A stretch of 42,622 bases of DNA from a virus: positions 1 through 42,622 of IMG/VR virus record IMGVR_UViG_3300042560_001019, one strand, 5' to 3'. Every line of letters starts with the position of its first letter. Position 1 is the first letter of the stretch. The position numbers and the translations under genes are program-made. Below, piece after piece: positions 4,919 to 36,440 of the stretch. Under the pieces are notes generated by a model. That model saw only the letters and a program-made list of their open reading frames with translations. It had not been told where the DNA came from and searched no databases.

Positions 4919-4929
4919 CCTAGCTTGCC
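4919..4929 (-). promoter_or_regulatory. Late start-associated motif overlapping stop and next start
   Basis: GGCAAGCTAGG supplies the Ala-Ser-stop codons of the upstream gene and is followed immediately by CC and the ATG at 4916. It is one of the tightest copies. Confidence 0.7.
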
Positions 4930-5306
4930 TCGACTTCACAGAGGACCTGATTGGACGGGCCGACGTTTTCGGAGACGCCGAGATTGGTGACGATCATGCC
5001 GGGGAACTCGAGCAGCAGACGATCGGTTAGCACCATGAGCGGTGTACGACCCGACCAGTCGACCAGATAGACCTGCCAGACCTTACGGGCCTGCTGGTTG
5101 CGGTAGCCCGGCACTGCCTCGGGCACCGGTTCGCGGTAGATGACGACCTCCAGGCCCTCGACGGTGGTTCCCGACGGTCGGCCCTCCCCTTCAGCCCGTA
5201 CGGCGATCGCAGGGGTGAGGGTGCCGTTCTGGAGGCGGTAGCGGCCCAGGTCATCCCGTAGGACGCCTTCGACGCGATCGCGCAGCTGTCGGACGGTTGT
5301 GGTCAT
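4920..5306 (-). CDS. Tail-terminator-like protein
   Basis: A 128-residue protein. It begins with a helix (TVRQLRDRVEGVLRDDLGRY) followed by LQNGTLTPAIAVRAEGEGRP and a beta-rich C-terminus (QVYLVDWSGRTPLMVLTDRL). Helix-then-'tPAI-V' strand order is typical of small tail-terminator/completion proteins of long-tailed phages, but this is fold-level resemblance only. It directly follows the tail-chaperone-like pair. It ends in the TAG of a late motif and starts three bases after another. Confidence 0.5.
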   Translation of the reverse strand: MTTTVRQLRDRVEGVLRDDLGRYRLQNGTLTPAIAVRAEGEGRPSGTTVEGLEVVIYREPVPEAVPGYRNQQARKVWQVYLVDWSGRTPLMVLTDRLLLEFPGMIVTNLGVSENVGPSNQVLCEVEAS

Positions 5307-5308
5307 GG

Positions 5309-5319
5309 CCTAGGTTCCC
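5309..5319 (-). promoter_or_regulatory. Late start-associated motif, variant (GGGAACCTAGG)
   Basis: One mismatch from the consensus. Its TAG is the stop codon of the -1 frame extension ending at 5310, and ATG follows two bases later at 5306. Confidence 0.55.
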
Positions 5320-5957
5320 GCCAGGAGTAGATCCGCCTCGATCCAGCCGCCATGGCTTCGCTGCGGGATCTTGACGGTCCAGGTCAGCAGCTGCCGGTCT
5401 AGGTCGCGGACTGTGATGGTGCCAGCGTTGAGGCCATGGCAACCGACGAGGCCGCCGCGGATGTTGCCGCCCTCCCATGTTGGCGCCAGCACCCAGAACC
5501 GCCCACAGTCGGACCGCAAGGCCCGGCAGTCGGGTGGGCGGCCTGCGGTGTCGGCCTGGGCTTGTGCGAGGTGCCAGGCGGCCAGCAGCTGGTCGGGCAG
5601 CTTGCGCTCAGCACGTAGGGCCAGCATGACGGCGACGACGGCAGGGCTGAGCGAATCGCCGGACACCTCAGGGTCGAGGGTGCCATAGATCCACCAGTCG
5701 CGCTCGGTCAGCACCTTGGCATCCTTGCCGCGGTTGATGTTGAACAACAAGGCGGTGAGCTGGGCAATGGGCCGTTCTGCCCGTGCCGCAGCTTCCCGCT
5801 GCTGGGTTCGCATTGCCCGCAGGGCATCCCGGACGATCCAGGTCAGCTCTTGGCCGAACGTTTGGCGGTGGAACTGTCCGGGGTAGTGGTGGGCGAGCTC
5901 CCAGAAGGTGGAGGCCCAGGTGCGGGTTGGCTTGCCCCGTCTGGATCCTCCGGCGGC
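5310..5957 (-). CDS. -1 frame extension of the tail-assembly-chaperone-like protein
   Basis: This open frame runs without a stop from the slippery site at 5957 to TAG at 5310 (215 codons). Its first 48 codons contain no ATG, GTG or TTG yet encode ordinary-looking protein, e.g. TFWELAHHYPGQFHRQTFGQ and ELTWIVRDALRAM. The first possible start is the ATG at 5813. Another stop (TGA) lies in this frame just upstream of the slippery site, near 5994. The simplest reading is that it is made as the C-terminal part of a 392-residue fusion with the gene at 5843-6487, as in lambda G/GT. Internal initiation at 5813 would give 167 residues and cannot be excluded as a second product. Confidence 0.7.
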   Translation of the reverse strand, partial: AAGGSRRGKPTRTWASTFWELAHHYPGQFHRQTFGQELTWIVRDALRAMRTQQREAAARAERPIAQLTALLFNINRGKDAKVLTERDWWIYGTLDPEVSGDSLSPAVVAVMLALRAERKLPDQLLAAWHLAQAQADTAGRPPDCRALRSDCGRFWVLAPTWEGGNIRGGLVGCHGLNAGTITVRDLDRQLLTWTVKIPQRSHGGWIEADLLLAGT

Positions 5958-6487
5958 TTTTTTAGCACGTCCTCCGTCATGGGTTCCGGCGGGTCAGCCT
6001 TGACGACCTGTTCGTCCTGCCAGAGGGCATAGAGGCCATCGATGAGCACCCGCGGCTGGCGGCGCACATCATCGAGGGTGGCAGCGGCCTGTCCGCAACG
6101 GTGGCGCAGGAGGGTCAGGACTGCCGCGAGACGTTGGGTCTGGAACTCCCGGAGCCAATCGCGCTTGATGGTCTCCAGCTGCTGCGCATGGGCCAGGGCG
6201 ATCTCAAGGGCCGCAGGTTCCTGCACGACGCCAGCGAGGTGGGCTTGGATGATGGCGTAGCCCTCGGCGCGGGTGATGCCGTGCTCAACGTGCCAGGCCT
6301 CAGCCAGCTTGGCAGCAGCCTCAAAGGTTGAGGGCTGGTCGGCCTGGATGAGGGTGTAGTCCGTGTCCTCATCGGTGGTGATGCCGCCGAGGACCGGGAC
6401 CGCGATGATGCCAGAGGCGGTGTTGCCGATGAGGCGCGGTGCACCAGCGGCAGCGGGTGGGGTGGTGTAGTTGAGGTGGAGGGTCAC
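5843..6487 (-). CDS. Tail-assembly-chaperone-like protein, zero frame
   Basis: A 214-residue protein. A helical core spans about residues 50-160 (TFEAAAKLAEAWHVEHGITR, LETIKRDWLREFQTQRLAAV). The C-terminus after the frameshift site is low-complexity (37 residues of Pro, Ser, Thr, Gly, Ala). The start is GTG at 6487, overlapping the stop of the 35-residue gene (GTGA). Helical core, disordered tail and an in-phase slippery heptamer match lambda gpG-type chaperones that coat the tape measure protein. Its location, downstream of tail fibres rather than before the tape measure, is unusual. The role is inferred. Confidence 0.6.
   Translation of the reverse strand: MTLHLNYTTPPAAAGAPRLIGNTASGIIAVPVLGGITTDEDTDYTLIQADQPSTFEAAAKLAEAWHVEHGITRAEGYAIIQAHLAGVVQEPAALEIALAHAQQLETIKRDWLREFQTQRLAAVLTLLRHRCGQAAATLDDVRRQPRVLIDGLYALWQDEQVVKADPPEPMTEDVLKKPPEDPDGASQPAPGPPPSGSSPTTTPDSSTAKRSAKS
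5957..5975 (-). other. Programmed -1 frameshift signal (A AAA AAG with upstream SD)
   Basis: Minus-strand bases 5963-5957 read A AAA AAG, exactly phased as X XXY YYZ in the frame of the gene starting at 6487 (codons CTA, AAA, AAG). The same heptamer drives frameshifting in E. coli dnaX. An SD-like GGAGG at 5975-5971 lies seven bases upstream, also as in dnaX. GC-rich sequence follows. Shifting by -1 enters the open frame that ends at 5310. Confidence 0.75.
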
Positions 6488-12848: not shown

Positions 12849-13591
12849 CGGACCAGTGCCTGGGTCAGGTTCACGGTGTAACGGGTGGCCTTGGCCCCAC
12901 CGTCAATGATGACCTCTCCCGTGGCCTCAGGCGGGCTGATGGGCCAGTAGGTGCCGGCTGCTGGGGTCGTCTGCACAATGGCCTCGTACCACGTCTGTAG
13001 GGCCGACCAGCCGGCCGAGGTGGTGGTGCCGACGACCTTCCGCAGCTTGGTCGCGGCCAGTGGGCCTTGGACATAGTGGCGACCGCCGGCCGTGAGCTGT
13101 AGGTTCGGTGCGTCCTGATAGCCGACGGGCTCCTCGATCAGCGTCAGGGTGCAGCTGCCGAGCGTGAGGGTGCCGTAGGCGGGCCTGCTGGCCTCCTCCG
13201 ATTGCCGGCCCTTCTCCTGTTCCCGCAGCAGCACCGCCAGGGCCTGTGTGGCATCGACGAGGGTGAAGGATGCCTGAACGTAGGCGCCGAGCTGCTCACC
13301 GGCAGGAGCTGACACGAACCAGCACGCGACCGATGACCATGACTGGCCAAAGCCATCGGCGGTAAGACTGACGGTGGTGCCGATGGTGCCCGATAGGGCG
13401 GTGTCCTGATCCTGGATTCGTGCATCACGCCAGGTGTCGTAGACGCTGAGGAGTGCGGTCCACTGGGCTTTGGTGAGGAGGCCAGAGATGGACCAGAAGC
13501 GCGAGGTAAGACCTTGCCGTGCATCACCTTCGTAGCCGAACGGCTGCGCGGTGAGATGGGTGCAGGAGAAAGCGCCGATGGTGACGGTCAT
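12845..13591 (-). CDS. Tail protein with duplicated domain (distal-tail-like)
   Basis: A 248-residue protein that looks internally duplicated. Residues about 30-60 (SRFWSISGLLTKAQWTALLS, VYDTWRDA) align with about 190-215 (VVGTTTSAGWSALQTWYEAI), each followed by a beta half. Lying immediately after the tape measure, it probably caps or joins the tail tube to the tip. The ATG at 13591 overlaps the tape measure stop (ATGA). Confidence 0.55.
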   Translation of the reverse strand: MTVTIGAFSCTHLTAQPFGYEGDARQGLTSRFWSISGLLTKAQWTALLSVYDTWRDARIQDQDTALSGTIGTTVSLTADGFGQSWSSVACWFVSAPAGEQLGAYVQASFTLVDATQALAVLLREQEKGRQSEEASRPAYGTLTLGSCTLTLIEEPVGYQDAPNLQLTAGGRHYVQGPLAATKLRKVVGTTTSAGWSALQTWYEAIVQTTPAAGTYWPISPPEATGEVIIDGGAKATRYTVNLTQALVR

Positions 13592-16008
13592 TGGAGGCTG
13601 TTGACAGTGTTCACGGTGGCAGCCCCGCCGGCTTCGTTGGTGACGTTGACCTGAACCGACCAATCCTTGTTTGCCAGCTCACCGATGGAGCCTTCAAGGG
13701 CACTGATCCGATCAACCAGGGCGGTGTTGCTGTTGCTGATGTTTTCAGCAGCGGTCAAGGATGCCTTGCTGTTCTCTTGGATTGGTGCCGGGTCGATCTG
13801 GATGGAATCCAGGAAGGCGCGGAAGCCGGGCTGCTGCTGCACCTGCGGCAGTGGCAGGTCATCGGCCGCCGCGGCCCGGCGCTCCTGCTCGAGCTGCTGC
13901 CGGCGAAGCTCGAATAGCTGGGTCGCCCCCGTGATCTTCTCTGCATTGATCTCCCGGACCAGCGCCCGTTCCTGCTGCGCCAGCCTCAGGGCCTGTTCTG
14001 CCGCTTGGATTTCGGCCGGGGCCCCTTTAGCCTGTGCCTGCGCCAGCTGAGCCCTTGCGGCGATCTCTCCGCGTTGAGCAGCCAGGTCGGTGATCCTGCC
14101 TTCTAGGTCAAGCTGCTTGAGTTGCGCTTCAAACTCGGCCTGCTGCGCCCGGGCTTTCAGGTCGAAGCTCCGGCGTTCGAGCTCATCACGCTTGAGCTGG
14201 AACTGCTCCTGGATGGCGGCCCGGGTGCGGTCGTTGGTGACGCCTTCTAGGGCCCGCTTCTCCTGGGCATTGAGCAGGGCCTCTTCGGTGCGGAGCTTGG
14301 CATTGGCTAGGTCGGTTTCGGCCTGTGCGATCTGGCCGGTCAGGTCGAGGCGTGCTTGGTTGAGCTTGAGGGCAGCGGACTGGGTGTCGACGTTGAAGGT
14401 ATCGGGCCGGATTTCGGCGACGGCAGCAGAGGTGCCCTTTGCGGCATCGGTGGCAGCCTGCAGGGCCTTTTCCACGATGGGGATTTCGCGGCCCAGCTCC
14501 TGAAATCGAAGGGTGCCGATGCCGACCTTGTTCTGCTCAGCCCTAAGGGCTTTGAGCCTTTCGTTCAGGCTGTCAATGCTGACGATTACCGGTTTCACGG
14601 GATCAGCGCCACCGGTCTGCGGCTTTGCGATCAGCTCGACCGGTTTGGTCTTCTTGCCGAACAGCGAATCCAGGACAGGTTTCAGCGTCTTTCCTGCTGC
14701 TGTCAGGCTGTCGGTAGCGAGTTTGGCGCCGCCAAGGCCTTTGATCAAAGCCTCAAGGGCCTTGAGTTGCGTCGGGCCGAGTCCACCAAAGCCGCCGAGG
14801 TTGGTGGCCTGAGCCTGTCCTAAGGCCTGCCTGGCCTCACGGGATCGAATCGCAAGCGATGCCAGTTCCGCCAATCCAGCGACGACCGGCTTAACCAGTG
14901 GCAGGATTCCTTGCCCCAGTTCGGTCTTTAGTTCAGTGAAGGCGTTTGTGAGCTTGCCGATGGCCTGTGCTGCGGTCGGTGCGCTCGACGGGCCGCCGTT
15001 GATCTGCTTGAGGCCAGCGGTGAAGGCAGGGAAGAACTCCTTACTGGTGAGCTTGCCGGACTCAACAAGCTTGATCAGCTCCTGCTGAGTCACGCCAAGA
15101 CCTTTGGCGGCGGCTGCAAACGCGACCGGCAGCCTCTCCCCAAGCTGCCCGCGCAGCTCCTCCATTGAGACGGTACCTTTGGATGCGATCTGCTGCAGCG
15201 CCAGCAATGCGCCTTCTAGTTGATCGCTGGTCAAGCCAAAGTTAGTGGCTGATTTTGCTACTTCAGTGAATAGGGCTTGCTGCTGATCCAGTGGCACGTT
15301 TGCAGCTGTTGCAGCCGCCGTAAAGCTTGAAAATGTGCTGGTTAGCGTCTTGAATGACAGGCCAAGTTCGTCTGCAAGGCCTTTGGTGAAGGCCAGCGCC
15401 TGCGCTGCACCCTGTTCGCCCAGCGTAATGCTCAACCGACGGGTTACGGACTCCAGTTGGATGGCCTCTTGGGCCCCCTGGCGGAAGAACTCACCAAGGG
15501 CAATGACACCAAGACCACGCACGAGGCCGCCAATCTGCCCACGGATGGCGCCGATAAATGCCTGCTGTTGCGCTGCGGCTGCCGCCTCGGCGTCTGCCCG
15601 TTGCTTGGCTGCGGTCTTGGCAGCCTCGTTCAGCCGTCGGATCTGCTCGATTCGCTGCTGGGTTGCCTGCTTCTCCGCCTCAACCGCTGCCCGTGCCGCC
15701 TGCTTGGCCAGCGTTGCCTGCTCCCGCGCGGCGGCCTGCTGCGCCTCCAGCGGTGACCGTGCCGCCGACTTCAGTGCCGCTTCAGTCTGCGCGATCTCCT
15801 GCCGTAGCTTCGCAAACGCACCGCTGCCGATCTCAAGGCCTGCCAGCTGCGCCTGCTGATCCTTCAGTTTCTGCCGCAGCGCATCAATGCTGTTGGCGAC
15901 CTTTGTGGTCTCCTGCTGTGCCGTTTGCCCGAACTGCTGCAGGGCCTGCTGGGCACCGGCCTGGTCGACCTTGATGCCTAGTACGACCTCGCCGAGGGAG
16001 TCTGCCAT
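13588..16008 (-). CDS. Tape measure protein
   Basis: An 806-residue protein. Residues about 20-150 are coiled-coil rich (AQQALQQFGQTAQQETTKVA, Gln/Ala/Lys repeats). A tape-measure domain signature follows at about 225-300 (KGTVSMEELRGQLGERLPVA), then hydrophobic helices, and a long coiled coil from about 500 to 740 (LRAEQNKVGIGTLRFQELGR). It sets tail length; at about 0.15 nm per residue the tail would be near 120 nm. The ATG at 16008 is two bases below a late motif. Confidence 0.85.
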   Translation of the reverse strand: MADSLGEVVLGIKVDQAGAQQALQQFGQTAQQETTKVANSIDALRQKLKDQQAQLAGLEIGSGAFAKLRQEIAQTEAALKSAARSPLEAQQAAAREQATLAKQAARAAVEAEKQATQQRIEQIRRLNEAAKTAAKQRADAEAAAAAQQQAFIGAIRGQIGGLVRGLGVIALGEFFRQGAQEAIQLESVTRRLSITLGEQGAAQALAFTKGLADELGLSFKTLTSTFSSFTAAATAANVPLDQQQALFTEVAKSATNFGLTSDQLEGALLALQQIASKGTVSMEELRGQLGERLPVAFAAAAKGLGVTQQELIKLVESGKLTSKEFFPAFTAGLKQINGGPSSAPTAAQAIGKLTNAFTELKTELGQGILPLVKPVVAGLAELASLAIRSREARQALGQAQATNLGGFGGLGPTQLKALEALIKGLGGAKLATDSLTAAGKTLKPVLDSLFGKKTKPVELIAKPQTGGADPVKPVIVSIDSLNERLKALRAEQNKVGIGTLRFQELGREIPIVEKALQAATDAAKGTSAAVAEIRPDTFNVDTQSAALKLNQARLDLTGQIAQAETDLANAKLRTEEALLNAQEKRALEGVTNDRTRAAIQEQFQLKRDELERRSFDLKARAQQAEFEAQLKQLDLEGRITDLAAQRGEIAARAQLAQAQAKGAPAEIQAAEQALRLAQQERALVREINAEKITGATQLFELRRQQLEQERRAAAADDLPLPQVQQQPGFRAFLDSIQIDPAPIQENSKASLTAAENISNSNTALVDRISALEGSIGELANKDWSVQVNVTNEAGGAATVNTVNSLQ

Positions 16009-16010
16009 GG

Positions 16011-16034
16011 CCTAGCTTGCCGGCAACCTATGGC
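16011..16034. promoter_or_regulatory. Head-to-head late motifs between divergent genes
   Basis: The 26-base gap between divergent ATGs (minus 16008, plus 16035) is nearly filled by two opposed motif copies: minus GGCAAGCTAGG (16021-16011) and plus GGCAACCTATGGC (16022-16034). They meet at the palindrome TTGCCGGCAA. Each points into its own gene, which shows that motif direction follows gene direction. Confidence 0.7.
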
Positions 16035-16433
16035 ATGACCTCAGCTCTTGCCGCCGTCGCTAATGCTTCCGTCACCTTTGACGTAGCAACGACCGGCACC
16101 GTTGTCGATCCCTTCACCGGTAATGTCCTGCCTCGCACCGAGACCGTTACGGTTACGTGCTACCTGCGGCAAGGCTCACCCGCGATCACTGACCTCGCTG
16201 GTGTCAACGTGGCCGGTGATACGTTCTCAGGCTATGCCGTGGCACCGCAGGCACTCGATGCCAGGGTGGTGCCGGGGACGCTTGGGATGCTGACGTTTGC
16301 TGGGCAGACGCCAGCCCGTTGCGTGGTGCAGGAAGCCCGCGGGCCGTATGGCACCACCGGCCTGATCGGTTCGACGCTGCAGCAGGTGCTGGGCGACAAG
16401 CTACAGATTGTGCGCTATCGGCAGCAGGCATGA
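16035..16433 (+). CDS. Head-tail connector / neck protein in inverted cassette
   Basis: A 132-residue beta-rich protein (VATTGTVVDPFTGNVLPRTE, ETVTVTCYLRQGSPAITDLA, then GLIGSTLQQVLGDKLQIVRY). Size, composition and linkage to an HK97 gp10-like gene suggest a head-closure protein. The ATG at 16035 follows the plus-strand late-type motif; the longer frame would use a non-ATG start inside that motif. It is transcribed opposite to all surrounding late genes and is coupled to the next gene by ATGA. Confidence 0.55.
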   Translation: MTSALAAVANASVTFDVATTGTVVDPFTGNVLPRTETVTVTCYLRQGSPAITDLAGVNVAGDTFSGYAVAPQALDARVVPGTLGMLTFAGQTPARCVVQEARGPYGTTGLIGSTLQQVLGDKLQIVRYRQQA

Positions 16434-16900
16434 ACCTGACGGTCACCACGACATTCAACCCGGGCAACCTAGACCCGTCGCGGTTCATTGCCCGTAGCGC
16501 CGAGATCCTGCGGGCCTATGACTCGGTGATCTTCCCGGCGTTTAAGGAGGAGATCAAGGCGGCACAGTTCAGCTGGCCGAGGGCAACGAGGCGCCGCGGC
16601 AAGAAAGGGGAAGCCCCATACACCGTCACCAGCCCGCGGGATATTGTCGACACCGGCGATTTCCTTAGCTCGCAATTCCGACGGCAGGAGGCCCCGCTGA
16701 GCCTGAGGCTGACCTACACGTGGGGCGGCAGAGGCACCGGCGTCAACTATGCCGGCTACATCTTGACCGGGATTCCAGCAAGGGGCTATCCGGGCCGGGA
16801 TTGGATCAAACCCGTCTTCACGGATCACCCCCTCGATCGGTTCTTTGCCACGAACTGGCGGCGGCTTGCAGGTGCTCCCAACAAGCCACCGCGGGCCTAA
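16430..16900 (+). CDS. Neck / tail-completion protein (HK97 gp10-like) in inverted cassette
   Basis: A 156-residue protein with a helix-then-beta layout: ARSAEILRAYDSVIFPAFKE, APYTVTSPRDIVDTGDFLSS and LRLTYTWGGRGTGVNYAGYI. The 'DTGdF-sS' plus 'Y-ilt-G' arrangement recalls HK97 gp10-type proteins that join tail to neck. It ends two bases from the stop of the opposing tail tube gene. It contains a plus-orientation GGCAACCTAG at 16463-16472 within codons for Gly-Asn-Leu-Asp, possibly chance. Confidence 0.6.
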   Translation: MNLTVTTTFNPGNLDPSRFIARSAEILRAYDSVIFPAFKEEIKAAQFSWPRATRRRGKKGEAPYTVTSPRDIVDTGDFLSSQFRRQEAPLSLRLTYTWGGRGTGVNYAGYILTGIPARGYPGRDWIKPVFTDHPLDRFFATNWRRLAGAPNKPPRA

Positions 16901-16902
16901 GG

Positions 16903-17646
16903 TCAGGCGATCGTAGCGACCGTCAGGACCGGCGCCGTATCGCCCGAGCTGAACACCGACGCATCGTCGATGGTCAGCGTATCGCCCACCACGAAGTTGT
17001 TGCCACCAGAGACGATCGTGACGGTCTGGATCACGCCCGAACCATTGACGGTCGTGGTCGCTGTTGCCCCGCGGCCCGACGCTTGGCCGGCCTTTGGTGT
17101 CACCGGCACCAGCGGCACCGCCGAGGCAGCAGCCGCCAGGCCAAGGCCGCCATTGGTAACGGTCAGCGTCGCAATCGAGTCGCCCTGCTGGTATTTGTAG
17201 TAGACGCCATAGCCGTTGAGGGTGCCCGACACCTTGGCCACGTTGCCGGCCTGAATGTCTTCCGACAGTCCCGACACCTGCACGACCGCCGCGAGGATCT
17301 CCGGATCGTCGTCGCTGCCATCAGTGACGGGCGATTCACGCCAGATCTGCAGGCATGCACCGTTGGCGGACTCCAGGAATGCCCGCTCCATCAGCTTGTA
17401 GCCGGCCGAGGTGATGTCCATGTTCATGCCAAACGGCATCGACCACGAGTTGCCCGACACCAGCTGCTTGGCAAAGCCAGCCTCACTGGCATAGTCAATC
17501 GCGTTGACGGTGTCAGAGTTGGAGGTGACGCCAACATTGTCGATGTTGATGATTTCGGTCATCGTGGACCGGCTGGTCGGGATGGCGCTGGCCGTAGTGC
17601 CCAGCTTCACCCAGAGCCGGTAGTCATAGGCGACGAAGAAGCCCAC
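16903..17646 (-). CDS. Major tail (tube) protein
   Basis: A 247-residue protein. Residues about 30-175 follow tail tube proteins (STMTEIINIDNVGVTSNSDT, then GNSWSMPFGMNMDITSAGYK, and GLSEDIQAGNVAKVSGTLNG near the end of the core). The last 70 residues (GQASGRGATATTTVNGSGVI onward) are a Gly/Thr/Val-rich repeat-type extension, probably surface-exposed decoration. Translation probably starts at GTG 17646; no ATG lies near the expected N-terminus. The late motif is 20 bases upstream. Confidence 0.75.
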   Translation of the reverse strand: MGFFVAYDYRLWVKLGTTASAIPTSRSTMTEIINIDNVGVTSNSDTVNAIDYASEAGFAKQLVSGNSWSMPFGMNMDITSAGYKLMERAFLESANGACLQIWRESPVTDGSDDDPEILAAVVQVSGLSEDIQAGNVAKVSGTLNGYGVYYKYQQGDSIATLTVTNGGLGLAAAASAVPLVPVTPKAGQASGRGATATTTVNGSGVIQTVTIVSGGNNFVVGDTLTIDDASVFSSGDTAPVLTVATIA

Positions 17647-17678: not shown

Positions 17679-18386
17679 TCAATCGGTCAGCACCTCCCAT
17701 GGGGTCGGCCGTGAATCGGCATGCAGATCAAAGCCCAACACGTCATGGGCAAGGCCCTCAGTGGCCCGTAGGGCTTCCCTGAGCACCGCGGCAACGAGTT
17801 GATCCTCGACCTCATCAATCGCCGCCTCAACCGCTGGCCGCTCACCCCATACCGGCAAGCTGGCCTTAAGGCGGTCCCGTGCGGCGATGACGGTACGGGC
17901 GAGGATGCCGACCTCTGAGTCGCGGCTGCCGCGGGCACTGAGGCCAGCGGCGAGCAGTTCGCCCCTCATCTGGTCTCGGGCTTGCCGTAGCGTCAGCCCT
18001 TCACCCATCAACCGTCGGGCGAGGTTGCCGAGGTGCTGGCACGCATCGGTCGACCTGATGCCATAGCCGTGGTCCCGTCGCCAGTGGGAGCATTCACCCT
18101 CGATCAGGCGGGCGAAGATCGTTGAGAATCGGCCCCGGGCAGGGTCCCAAGCCCGACACGCCTTGATGAAGGCAAAGTCGATGCACGAGAACACGTCCTC
18201 CGCCCGCATGTGCCGGTAGCGGTTGACGTAACGGCGGCCGAAGGCCTTGACCAGCGCGATGTGCTCAACGTACATCTCACCGCAGCGCTTGCGTTCCGCT
18301 GGGCTCAGCGGTTCCGCGAGGTGGCCTTGAGTCCTGCGGCGCCGTTGCGGTGCTGCTGGCTCAGGTTCCAGGAGCTGCAGCTGCAA
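17679..18386 (-). CDS. Sigma region 2-like protein within the head-tail module
   Basis: A 235-residue protein. Residues about 45-110 match sigma region 2: VNRYRHMRAEDVFSCIDFAF, then IKACRAWDPARGRFSTIFAR and ECSHWRRDHG. The second sigma factor of this phage has the same spaced pattern (EDLF, then WDPERGYKFST). No convincing region 4 helix-turn-helix follows; the rest is helical (RLMGEGLTLRQARDQMRGEL, EAAIDEVEDQLVAAVLREAL). The start is TTG at 18386, three bases after the connector stop; ATG at residue 38 is an alternative. It could be a truncated sigma, an RNA polymerase-binding co-regulator, or a structural protein of sigma origin. Confidence 0.6.
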   Translation of the reverse strand: MQLQLLEPEPAAPQRRRRTQGHLAEPLSPAERKRCGEMYVEHIALVKAFGRRYVNRYRHMRAEDVFSCIDFAFIKACRAWDPARGRFSTIFARLIEGECSHWRRDHGYGIRSTDACQHLGNLARRLMGEGLTLRQARDQMRGELLAAGLSARGSRDSEVGILARTVIAARDRLKASLPVWGERPAVEAAIDEVEDQLVAAVLREALRATEGLAHDVLGFDLHADSRPTPWEVLTD

Positions 18387-32844: not shown

Positions 32845-34977
32845 ATGGGGGCGATCATTGATGCCGCCCGAGGCCGCTGGCCTCAGGTGCTGGCGGATCT
32901 TGGCGGCCTGACGGAAAAGCACCTGAGCGGTCGGCATGGGCCGTGCCCGCTGTGTGAGGGAACGGACCGGTTTCGGTTTGATGACCAGGGAGGGACCGGG
33001 AGCTGGTTCTGCAACCAATGCGGGGGGAAGGACCAACGCGGTGGTGGCGGGTCAGGGCTTGAGCTGCTGGCCCGGAAGCGCGGCTGGACGCCCCGGGAAG
33101 CCCTGAGACACGTCGGCCGGTACCTTGACACTCCCGACACCCCAGAGGCCCCGCGCAAGGCCCCAGAGACGCCATGGCGGCAACCGGAGCGCCCACCAGC
33201 CGATGCACCGCCTCCGGCCCTGGATCGTGGCGCTACGGCCCGCTGGTGTTACCGGGACGCCAGTGGAGCGCCCCTGTTCTGGATTCTGCGGCTGGAGCTG
33301 AGCAACGGCGCCAGGGCATATCCGCATGTGGTGTGGCTTGATGGCGGCTGGCACCGGCCGAACAAGCGCCGTGATGGGTTCAGCTGCGATTGGCCCACGC
33401 CACGGCCGCTCTATGGCCTCCCAGACCTCACAGAACGACCTGAGGCGCCGGTGCTGGTGGTCGAGGGTGAGAAGACCGCCGACGCGGCGCGTGAGCTATT
33501 GCCCGACTGGGTGGTGGTGACGTGGTCGAACGGGGCCAAGAGTCACGGCAAGGCCGACTGGTCGCCGCTGCGGAACCGTGACTGCTGGCTGGCACCAGAC
33601 AACGACCTGGACGGCCGAAACGCCATGGCCGCGGTGGGTGACGTGCTGCGGGGTCAAGGGTGCCGGGTGCAGGTGGTCGGGCCACCACCGGAGGCCACTG
33701 AGGGATGGGACCTGGCCGATGCGCGGGACTGGAGCACGGCGCAGACAGAGGAATGGCTGAGGGGAGCGCAAGCGGTCGAGGGCAAACAGTTCGATGGGCT
33801 GATCCGCAGGCGAACGAGTGATGAACCCAAGGCGCTGGATGCAGGGCTGCTGCTGGCGATGCTGCGGGTGAAGGCATCGGACGGGCAGACGTTGCGGTAC
33901 AACACCTTTAATCAGACGATTGAGCTGAACGGCGAGGCGATTGAAGGGATCGAGCGGTTCTACCTGAAGCTGGCAGATATGGGCTACACGATCAAAAAAC
34001 AGATGGCGCAGGATTGCCTGGTTGAGATCGCGAAGGAATACAAATACGACCCGGTGAGAATGTACCTTGAGCACGTTGAAGCCACGGCAGAACCGGCCTA
34101 TATCGACCAGCTGGCGACGACCTACCTACGGCCTGAAGATGCGGCCCTGAATGAACCGACCCTGTATGACGCGATGATTAAGGCCACCTTGATCGGTGCG
34201 GTGCGGCGGGCATTGGAGCCAGGCTGCAAGCATGACACGTGCTGCGTGATTGCTGGTGTCCAGGGTGCACGCAAGTCAGCATTCTGGCAGGTGCTGGGTG
34301 GGCCATTCTTCAGTGATCAGTTGAGCACGCTGCAGAAGTTGACTGATGAGCAGCTGAAGCTGCATCGGAGCTGGATCATGGAATGGCCGGAGCTTGACCA
34401 CATCATGAGCCGCGGCCATTCGGGACAGATTAAGGCATTCATCACGACCCAGCGGGACCTGTTCCGTGCACCATATGGGGCAGCAGTGGAGGAACACCCA
34501 CGGCGTGGGATCATCGTGGCAACGGTGAATAAGACCGATGGCTTGCTGATCGATGACACGGGCAACCGTAGGTTCTGGATCATCCCGACGACCTTGAGCG
34601 AGGATAACCAGATCAATACGGCAGGGTTACAACGTGAGCGTGATGCGATCTGGTGCGCAGCGGTGAAGGCATACCGGAGGGGCGAGAGCAGCTTCTTGCC
34701 GGTCCATCTGCTGCGGCAGGTCAGAGAGGAGAACGAGAACTACGTGACGGAGTCGCCATGGATGGCGGCAGTACAGGAATGGATCAAAGCGCCAGTGAAT
34801 GCCGGGCGGCCACTGACCACGGAAGTCCTACTGAAAGAGGCGATCCAGAAGCCAGTGGGGCAGCAGAACCGGGCGGATCAGATGATGGTGGGCGACATTC
34901 TACGGCGGCTGGGATATTCCAAGACACGAAAGCTGGTCAACGGTCGTCGTGAGTGCCATTACACGCTTGATCCTTGA
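32845..34977 (+). CDS. Primase-helicase (zinc-binding, TOPRIM, VirE-like ATPase)
   Basis: A 710-residue replication protein. The N-terminal zinc-binding domain has CPLCEGTDRFRFDDQ and WFCNQCGGKD (residues about 34-62). TOPRIM follows with LVVEGEKTADAARELL, SNGAKSHGKADWSPLR and LAPDNDLDGRNAMAAV (about 200-270). The C-terminal VirE/D5-like ATPase has Walker A-like IAGVQGARKSAFWQVLGG, IMEWPELDHI and IIVATVNKTDGLLIDDTGNR. It would make primers and unwind DNA at the nearby control region. It starts one base after the RHH gene; its 3' end overlaps the convergent nuclease by 41 bp. Confidence 0.9.
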   Translation: MGAIIDAARGRWPQVLADLGGLTEKHLSGRHGPCPLCEGTDRFRFDDQGGTGSWFCNQCGGKDQRGGGGSGLELLARKRGWTPREALRHVGRYLDTPDTPEAPRKAPETPWRQPERPPADAPPPALDRGATARWCYRDASGAPLFWILRLELSNGARAYPHVVWLDGGWHRPNKRRDGFSCDWPTPRPLYGLPDLTERPEAPVLVVEGEKTADAARELLPDWVVVTWSNGAKSHGKADWSPLRNRDCWLAPDNDLDGRNAMAAVGDVLRGQGCRVQVVGPPPEATEGWDLADARDWSTAQTEEWLRGAQAVEGKQFDGLIRRRTSDEPKALDAGLLLAMLRVKASDGQTLRYNTFNQTIELNGEAIEGIERFYLKLADMGYTIKKQMAQDCLVEIAKEYKYDPVRMYLEHVEATAEPAYIDQLATTYLRPEDAALNEPTLYDAMIKATLIGAVRRALEPGCKHDTCCVIAGVQGARKSAFWQVLGGPFFSDQLSTLQKLTDEQLKLHRSWIMEWPELDHIMSRGHSGQIKAFITTQRDLFRAPYGAAVEEHPRRGIIVATVNKTDGLLIDDTGNRRFWIIPTTLSEDNQINTAGLQRERDAIWCAAVKAYRRGESSFLPVHLLRQVREENENYVTESPWMAAVQEWIKAPVNAGRPLTTEVLLKEAIQKPVGQQNRADQMMVGDILRRLGYSKTRKLVNGRRECHYTLDP

Positions 34978-35254
34978 CGACCTGCACCTCAAAGCCCAGG
35001 TCGCGCAGCTCCTGGATTCGGTGCTCCTGAATGGGTGACAGGCGCCCACGGGAGGCCTTGACTTCGACGAACAGGATGCCGCGGTCGGGATGGCATAGGA
35101 GAAGATCCGGCAGACCTGCGACGGAGGTACGCAGGAGCCGGATCACATACCAACCGTCGGCCTTGTATTGCTTAACCAACATTGCCTGAAAGGCTGCCTC
35201 GGTCCGCTCTGAAGTGGGCTGCGGTATAGGACTCCTTCGCCCGGACTTTGTCAT
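34937..35254 (-). CDS. VRR-NUC domain nuclease
   Basis: A 105-residue protein. TEAAFQAMLVKQYKADGWYV, then SVAGLPDLLLC and GILFVEVKASRGRLSPIQEH give the VRR-NUC core: E...Q helix, PD, and ExK catalytic residues. The ATG at 35254 keeps the conserved first helix; ATG at 35182 is a shorter alternative. It overlaps the helicase gene by 83 bases and the convergent primase gene by 41. It probably acts with the adjacent helicase on branched or broken DNA. Confidence 0.8.
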   Translation of the reverse strand: MTKSGRRSPIPQPTSERTEAAFQAMLVKQYKADGWYVIRLLRTSVAGLPDLLLCHPDRGILFVEVKASRGRLSPIQEHRIQELRDLGFEVQVVKDQACNGTHDDR

Positions 35255-36440
35255 AGACCTTCAGTTCGAGGGAGTTGGCTGCAAGGATCCAGTGTACGCG
35301 CGGCGGGACGGTACGACCAAGGGCCGAGGCACGGTCGCGGCCTTGCAGGTAGGACAGGGCGGAGTAGTCGATGCCGAGGAAGACGAGATCATCGGCAGGC
35401 GAGAGGTTGACCCCTTCCCGTGAGGCCTGGACCTGCCCGATGAAGACGGAATCAGGCCGTGCGGCGAACTCCTCGGGCGAGTCGGTGGCCAGCGTGCCAT
35501 AGGCCTGCCGGAGCATGACCCCTTCGGCATGGAAGCAATAGAGGACCGCAAGACGCCCCCTAAACCTGTTGCGGATGTAGTCGACCTTGCTGGTGTCAAA
35601 AATGATTCCAGTCCCACAGGCGTTCTCTGGAATCACGGTGCCGCTATACATCTGCCTGAGCTTCTGCATCTGCTTGGCTGCGGTGTCAGCGACGACGGGC
35701 CAGCCCGTGCCAACGGTGACCACGTCATCGCGCATGAGCTTGCCGGTGTCGGCATAGGTCTGGGGGGCCATCCGCACCTGATGAACCTGCTCGATGATCT
35801 GGGTCTGAAAGCCGGCCTGCTGCTGGGTGATGCGCACCATGTGAGGTGCCAGATCAGCCATGATGAGCGCTTCATTGGCGTCGGAGTAGTCGTTGACCTC
35901 CTGACCGGTGCCAACCCTACGGGTGCGGACGTTGACGTAGCCCGCGGCGGCCCACTTGTAGAAGCTGCTCTGCTGCCATGGGACGGCGGTGGAGAGGCCA
36001 GCGGCGGAGGCAATGCGGATCTGGTGGTAGAGCTGCGAGAGGGATTCGGGTGAGGGTGTCCCGGAGAGCAGGATGCAACGGTCGTAGGTGAGCCGTGCCA
36101 CCTGTCGCGCCCGCAGGGAGGCCTTCGGGTAGGCCCCGAGGCAGTGGGCCTCATCAAGGATCAGCAGGTCGTAATGGCCCAGGAGCTTGTGGACCTGCTC
36201 GTAGTTGGTGACGTGCACCCGGTCGGTGAGGCCGAGGGCGTCCCGGTCCGCCTCGATGGAGGCGATGGCCTTCTTCTTGGTGAGGAACAGGCACCGCGTG
36301 ACCCCCAGGCGCCGGGCGACCTCAAGGACGGTCAGGGTCTTGCCGACGCGCACTTCACCGGCAAGGTAGGCCCAGCCGTCACGGAAGACGCGGGTGAGCA
36401 GGTCGTCTGCGGCGGTGAGCTGGTGTGGTCGTAGGTCCAT
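35172..36440 (-). CDS. SF2 DNA helicase paired with VRR-NUC nuclease
   Basis: A 422-residue protein. MDLRPHQLTAADDLLTRVFR supplies the Q-motif-like opening, motif I is AGEVRVGKTLTVLEVARRLG, motif II LLILDEAHCLGA, motif III LLSGTPSP, and motif VI-like YLQGRDRASALGR near the C-terminus. It is a SNF2/DEAH-type helicase. The ATG at 36440 was preferred; the frame is open upstream to about 36578 but would run over the promoter region of the rightward genes. It runs opposite to the surrounding early genes. Confidence 0.8.
   Translation of the reverse strand: MDLRPHQLTAADDLLTRVFRDGWAYLAGEVRVGKTLTVLEVARRLGVTRCLFLTKKKAIASIEADRDALGLTDRVHVTNYEQVHKLLGHYDLLILDEAHCLGAYPKASLRARQVARLTYDRCILLSGTPSPESLSQLYHQIRIASAAGLSTAVPWQQSSFYKWAAAGYVNVRTRRVGTGQEVNDYSDANEALIMADLAPHMVRITQQQAGFQTQIIEQVHQVRMAPQTYADTGKLMRDDVVTVGTGWPVVADTAAKQMQKLRQMYSGTVIPENACGTGIIFDTSKVDYIRNRFRGRLAVLYCFHAEGVMLRQAYGTLATDSPEEFAARPDSVFIGQVQASREGVNLSPADDLVFLGIDYSALSYLQGRDRASALGRTVPPRVHWILAANSLELKVYDKVRAKESYTAAHFRADRGSLSGNVG

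Follow-up and report, generated by a model that had tools for sequence, protein, structure and literature searches.

The locus described here raises the question of whether two overlapping reading frames on the minus strand of a virus genome are two genes or, as a first-pass annotation proposed, one gene that is read partly with a -1 frameshift to yield a pair of tail assembly chaperones. Long-tailed phages make these chaperones by -1 frameshifting (lambda G/GT), and in lambda the G/GT gene is placed between those for the major tail protein and the tape measure. The window, that is, the whole stretch of DNA under analysis, is a virus record of 42,622 bases. Our comparisons support the presence in this cyanobacterial siphovirus of a -1 frameshift tail assembly chaperone pair similar to lambda G/GT: a known kind of system, made of a protein family hitherto unnamed, in an unusual gene position.

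The slippery site and the reading frame under selection

The elements of the site lie on the minus strand, as follows.

5843 to 6487, minus strand: 0-frame ORF with a GTG start, 214 aa; putative short form of the tail assembly chaperone, analogue of lambda gpG
5994 to 5996, minus strand: TGA closing the -1 frame 5' of the heptamer, the nearest upstream -1 stop (sequence)
5971 to 5975, minus strand: SD-like GGAGG, 7 nt 5' of the heptamer (sequence; anti-SD pairing peak family-wide at 6 to 7 nt)
5957 to 5963, minus strand: slippery heptamer A AAA AAG in X XXY YYZ phase (sequence; the same in independent contigs)
5910 to 5951, minus strand: possible stimulator stem-loop, its stem closed by GGAGG/CCTCC (prediction)
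5310 to 5957, minus strand: -1 frame extension, 215 codons plus stop; putative analogue of lambda T (blastp, hhalign, phrog_34388)

Read through the codons CTA AAA AAG (5965-5957), the heptamer at 5963-5957 has precisely the X XXY YYZ phase. Counting the slipped AAA AAA, 217 codons of the -1 frame are free of stops, 215 of them beyond the site, before the frame closes at 5312-5310; its earliest ATG, GTG or TTG is the ATG at 5813, 48 codons past the heptamer, with only CTG and ATC codons before it. Joining the two frames would give a fusion of 392 aa, with a shared N-terminal part of 177 aa and a -1 part of 215 aa. In these respects the first-pass description was accurate: the coordinates and phase of the heptamer, the GGAGG seven bases upstream (5975-5971), the -1 frame of 215 codons that lacks a start codon in its first 48 and is preceded by a stop (5996-5994), and the length of the fusion could all be verified. 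The heptamer is the sole in-phase A AAA AAG among 23 minus-strand genes, with 0.22 expected over all 23 upon codon shuffling, and a codon-usage simulation gave P = 0.0085 for any common slippery heptamer in phase within the overlap.

The selected reading frame switches at the heptamer. Substitutions were counted between the window and contig L008/L003, which is about 91% identical to it in the chaperone region and retains the heptamer, the GGAGG, and all bases in between. Upstream of the heptamer, third positions of the 0 frame take 23 of 29 substitutions (23 synonymous and 6 non-synonymous codons). Within the 38-codon overlap, 11 of 15 substitutions fall at third positions of the -1 frame (binomial p 0.0018), and the same overlap read in the 0 frame has 11 non-synonymous versus 1 synonymous codon changes. 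The start-less 48-codon segment of the -1 frame, the conservation of which had been set beforehand as a test for the frameshift proposal, keeps 43 of its 48 residues, with 13 of 18 substitutions at -1 third positions.

These data bear on the possibility that the two frames are separate genes and that the downstream protein begins, without a frameshift, at ATG 5813 or another internal start. Initiation at ATG 5813 would give a 167-aa ORF, and database annotations of relatives indeed begin the downstream ORF internally. We consider this very unlikely, given that the 48 codons 5' of ATG 5813 are conserved as -1 frame protein, that homologs align across them, upstream of any possible start codon, and that the first possible start position varies widely among relatives while the preceding residues are conserved. 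Likewise, the presence of an in-phase slippery heptamer in 59 of 62 relatives (see below) argues against two independent genes and for the -1 frameshift.

The surroundings of the heptamer had been likened to the dnaX cassette, with the GGAGG placed "as in dnaX," and this comparison holds only in part. Like the E. coli dnaX element, the window combines an in-phase A AAA AAG with an SD-like element upstream and a (predicted) stem-loop downstream. In E. coli dnaX (genome record, locus L087), however, AGGGAG lies 10 nt 5' of A AAA AAG, and a review gives 9 to 14 nt as the SD spacing for -1 shifts (PMC5009743), so the 7 nt of the window constitute a shorter spacing. Moreover, the dnaX shift shortens the protein, whereas the shift in the window would extend it. 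Nor is the heptamer itself a notable choice in this setting, being used by 21 of 47 non-redundant family members. The pairing of the anti-SD core peaks family-wide at 6 to 7 nt 5' of the heptamer, with a mean of -3.3 kcal/mol compared to about -0.7 elsewhere. A 3' CC is the dinucleotide that makes A_AAA_AAG most shift-prone in E. coli (review, PMC5009743), and CC follows the heptamer of the window.

The stem-loop predicted at 5951-5910, which the first-pass annotation does not mention, is GC-rich and begins 5 nt 3' of the heptamer. In L008, 13 of the 14 stem pairs are kept, and the pairs 5937/5925 and 5936/5926 are altered on both sides; the strength of the structure was borderline, with a P of 0.047 against random substitutions and of 0.19 with positions held fixed. 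It is likely, judging from this comparison, that the stem-loop is real in the clade of the window. Across the family, downstream folding shows a modest excess (z -0.64 versus -0.12 in control stretches, p 0.034), which weakly supports such a structure as a family-wide feature.

A cyanosiphovirus family with the same frame break

Against named phages, neither megablast of the first 25 kb nor tblastn of the fusion gave matches at ordinary cut-offs. The family was reached via sub-threshold tblastn matches in P-SS2 and S-CRES1, followed by reverse and profile searches. Judged by these sequence comparisons, both halves are homologous to a family represented by P-SS2, S-CBS2, S-CRES1, and S-CRES3. 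With blastp, the -1 segment matches six-frame ORFs of S-CRES1, S-CBS2, P-SS2, and S-CRES3 at 1e-11 to 2e-7, and the 0-frame ORF matches a six-frame ORF of P-SS2 at 5e-4. In hhalign, the N-half profile aligns to the N halves of the four phages with an E of 5e-10, and the C-half profile-profile comparison gives 2e-14. In addition, the -1 half matches phrog_34388 at 2.7e-5, and Foldseek finds a 1e-10 match of the N half to a 181-aa viral protein.

The homologous pairs of the cultured phages (P-SS2, 34537-35765; S-CBS2 gp15/gp16; S-CRES1 gp72/gp73; S-CRES3 gp79/gp80) resemble the window in that the frame breaks by -1 at a slippery heptamer lying in phase and a gp18 homolog comes next. In contrast to our reading of the window, each pair is entered as two proteins, called hypothetical or "tail assembly protein", and none carries a frameshift annotation. 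The heptamer is G GGA AAG in P-SS2 and S-CRES3 and A AAA AAG, with a stop immediately 3', in S-CBS2 and S-CRES1. A stop at this place is common: most of the family have the 0-frame stop directly after the heptamer (TAG or TAA in 29 of 47 non-redundant sites), whereas in the window it comes 38 codons later, the stop included.

A family scan of IMG/VR yielded 62 contigs with relatives. In 59 of these, an in-phase heptamer occurs 3' of the last -1 frame stop and 5' of the 0-frame stop, with the same -1 break, bearing out the conservation of heptamer and frame for which the first-pass annotation had called. The three exceptions are L050, which ends at the contig edge, and L073 and L074, which have GGAAAAG. 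The latter two sites (L073 10001 and L074 4292) are near-identical; GGAAAAG TAA replaces the full heptamer while the -1 frame is still open, and they are perhaps tetramer A AAG sites. Among the 47 non-redundant sites, 21 have AAAAAAG, 22 GGGAAAG, and 4 GGGAAAA, and by parsimony the type changes 8 times on the C-half tree, which implies that the site is kept while its letters vary.

The relatives also speak to two other ways in which the frame break could arise. The heptamer contains a run of six A's, on which RNA polymerase rather than the ribosome might slip to make the fusion. Such transcriptional slippage appears extremely unlikely to us: in roughly half of the family this position is occupied by GGGAAAG or GGGAAAA, and the heptamer invariably has the X XXY YYZ phase of ribosomal slippage and is accompanied by an SD-like element at a preferred spacing. 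A homopolymer run at the junction might also raise the suspicion of an assembly or sequencing error that splits what is really one continuous ORF. This idea, to which we attach practically no weight, is already refuted by the relatives, because contigs of different metagenomes share the A6 run and the frame break, the cultured phages P-SS2, S-CBS2, S-CRES1, and S-CRES3 share the break, and homologs break frame at GGGAAAG, where there is no long homopolymer. Ribosomal frameshifting thus remains our reading of the site.

PHROG 34388, for which no function is given, was matched by the -1 half in each of the 46 members scanned. Its profile of 186 positions is shorter than the -1 half, presumably because its members were annotated from internal starts. 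Two scans of genome contigs turned up no prophage. Microcystis phage Mae-JY04 was considered as a member on account of a GGGAAAC -1 pair and left out, as the match spans just 18 residues. Its pair (L022, 5537-6174) comprises two ORFs, one in the -1 frame relative to the other, with GGGAAAC in phase; each is annotated as a hypothetical protein of its own, and the long ORF downstream of them is possibly the tape measure gene. This pair is probably another unannotated frameshift chaperone.

Probable tail assembly function and displaced gene order

The chaperone role is deduced from synteny, architecture, and virion absence in P-SS2, not from homology to lambda. All relatives with enough flanking sequence have the order gp14 - chaperone pair - gp18 - major tail protein - (gp20) - tape measure. 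The virion proteome of P-SS2 includes ORFs 061 to 063 and 066 to 069, and the pair between 063 and 066 is not in the table (PMC2784084); by their coordinates, the two ORFs in that gap are the homologous pair at 34537-35765. Similarly, lambda gpG and gpGT are missing from virions (PMC5009743). In the S-CBS2 annotation the neighbours are structural and the pair itself is hypothetical. Together with the frame-specific selection and the family homology, the synteny of the relatives and the absence from P-SS2 virions support the initial suggestion of a tail chaperone made by -1 frameshifting.

The resemblance to lambda gpG/gpGT lies in the architecture. In both, a -1 shift close to where a short tail gene ends would add a C-terminal domain (in the window, as read from the sequence), so that a short and a -1 extended product have one start (in the window, from architecture and selection); the genes of the relatives are near tail genes, and virion absence is seen in one relative, P-SS2. 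In contrast, we detected no homology to lambda G or T in sequence or fold. Pfam and PDB sequence searches gave nothing useful, and no Pfam, PHROG, or PDB match names a chaperone. AlphaFold2 modelled both halves with fair confidence (pLDDT 82 and 84), but the significant structural matches of both are unnamed viral proteins, with no confident match to a named chaperone. Furthermore, the -1 extension of the window, at 215 aa, exceeds the 177-aa shared N part in length, and the gene in the window clade is not adjacent to those for the major tail protein and the tape measure, both of which it precedes in the relatives.

The genes that define this displaced order, which the first-pass annotation did not note, are given below.

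4920 to 5306, minus strand: S-CBS2 gp18 homolog; in relatives this tail gene comes directly behind the chaperone (blastp 2e-8, synteny)
13588 to 16008, minus strand: tape measure protein (PHROG tail length tape measure, 9e-40), encoded upstream of the chaperone
16017 to 16433, plus strand: inverted gene at the gp13 position (gp13 match at E 0.056 only; 21 of 23 substitutions at third positions of the plus frame)
16430 to 16900, plus strand: inverted S-CBS2 gp14 homolog (best E 2e-5; plus-strand coding by substitution pattern)
16903 to 17646, minus strand: probable major tail protein (blastp S-CRES3 6e-4, S-CBS2 1e-3; phrog_38654 tail protein)

The placement usual in the P-SS2/S-CBS2 family, upstream of the major tail protein and the tape measure, is not seen in the window. 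In its clade, the chaperone and the gp18 homolog follow the tape measure at a distance of 7 kb. The window and independent contigs share the order major tail protein - tape measure - 272 aa - 668 aa - 249 aa - ... - 546 aa - chaperone pair. The gp18 homolog follows the pair in L011 and in the window, where an endolysin lies further on. All three genes, for the major tail protein, the tape measure, and the chaperone, occur together on L011 and likewise on L012, and the L012 tape measure is just 67% identical to that of the window. The gp14-type gene, normally directly upstream of the chaperone, is inverted between the major tail protein and the tape measure; the two opposite-strand genes (16017-16900, plus strand) within the minus-strand late operon are an arrangement kept in L009 to L015. 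Since the order is altered throughout the clade, we regard it as a variant placement, not as a loss of homology.

In the window, the gene follows those for the tail tip and putative fibres and precedes the endolysin, which could also mean that the frameshift is real but that its product is part of the surrounding tail fibre or lysis region. We find this quite unlikely: the relatives with enough flanks all have the pair upstream of the major tail protein and the tape measure, the same gp18 homolog adjoins it in relatives and window, and it is absent from P-SS2 virions. A tail chaperone in a displaced position is the reading we prefer. Minus-strand ORFs at 16828-16469 and 16488-16204, located between the major tail protein and the tape measure, were considered as an alternative chaperone pair and rejected, as the plus strand codes there.

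In L058, L065, and L083, homologs of the 272-aa and 668-aa proteins of the window lie behind the tape measure and the chaperone in front of it, so the window order is probably the derived one. These contigs join an S-CBS2-like chaperone order to window-like tail-tip genes and are possible intermediates of the rearrangement. The terminase is closest to those of S-H1 and KBS-S-2A (about 68 to 70%), and hence the packaging and tail modules differ in their affinities. In P-SS2 the tape measure is also far from the chaperone (18 kb), but downstream of it; to our knowledge, no tailed phage has a chaperone behind the tape measure. We tentatively suggest, as a scenario that may well prove wrong, that the tail module of the clade was broken up, the chaperone having moved with its downstream neighbour to a place behind the tape measure and tip genes, and the gp14-type gene having been inverted, so that synthesis of the chaperone, which ordinarily just precedes that of its clients, would follow it here and tail initiation would be independent of this order; in the same tentative vein, the SD-like stimulator at 7 nt may be a cyanophage-specific signal.

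Two further genes were noted in these regions. A sigma-factor-like gene (17679-18386, minus strand; phrog_351, 1.7e-11) is situated among head-tail connector and tail genes, and a 35-codon ORF (6591-6484, minus strand) spans the junction of the 546-aa gene with the chaperone, overlapping the stop of the former and the start of the latter; most of its differences from L008 appear to be synonymous.

Proposed mechanism and significance

Taken at the sequence level, it is very probable that one start gives rise to two tail assembly chaperones through a -1 slip at A AAA AAG. The majority of ribosomes would read 6487-5843 and make the 214-aa protein, and a minority would slip back one base at the heptamer to make the 392-aa fusion, the last 215 residues of which derive from the -1 frame. 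The slip would probably be aided by the GGAGG 7 nt upstream and the stem-loop 5 nt downstream. If lambda gpG/gpGT is a guide, the N half common to both products would coat the tape measure and the -1 half would recruit the major tail protein; the rate of slippage would set the ratio of the two products, neither of which would stay in the virion. The slippage itself, its rate, and the binding partners of each product are what we infer.

In conclusion, our analysis suggests a likely function for phrog_34388 and its unlisted N half, a cyanobacterial-phage family annotated in pieces, and makes available about 60 loci for comparing -1 frameshift signals. The displaced order may serve as a natural test of whether the chaperone must be made next to the tape measure.
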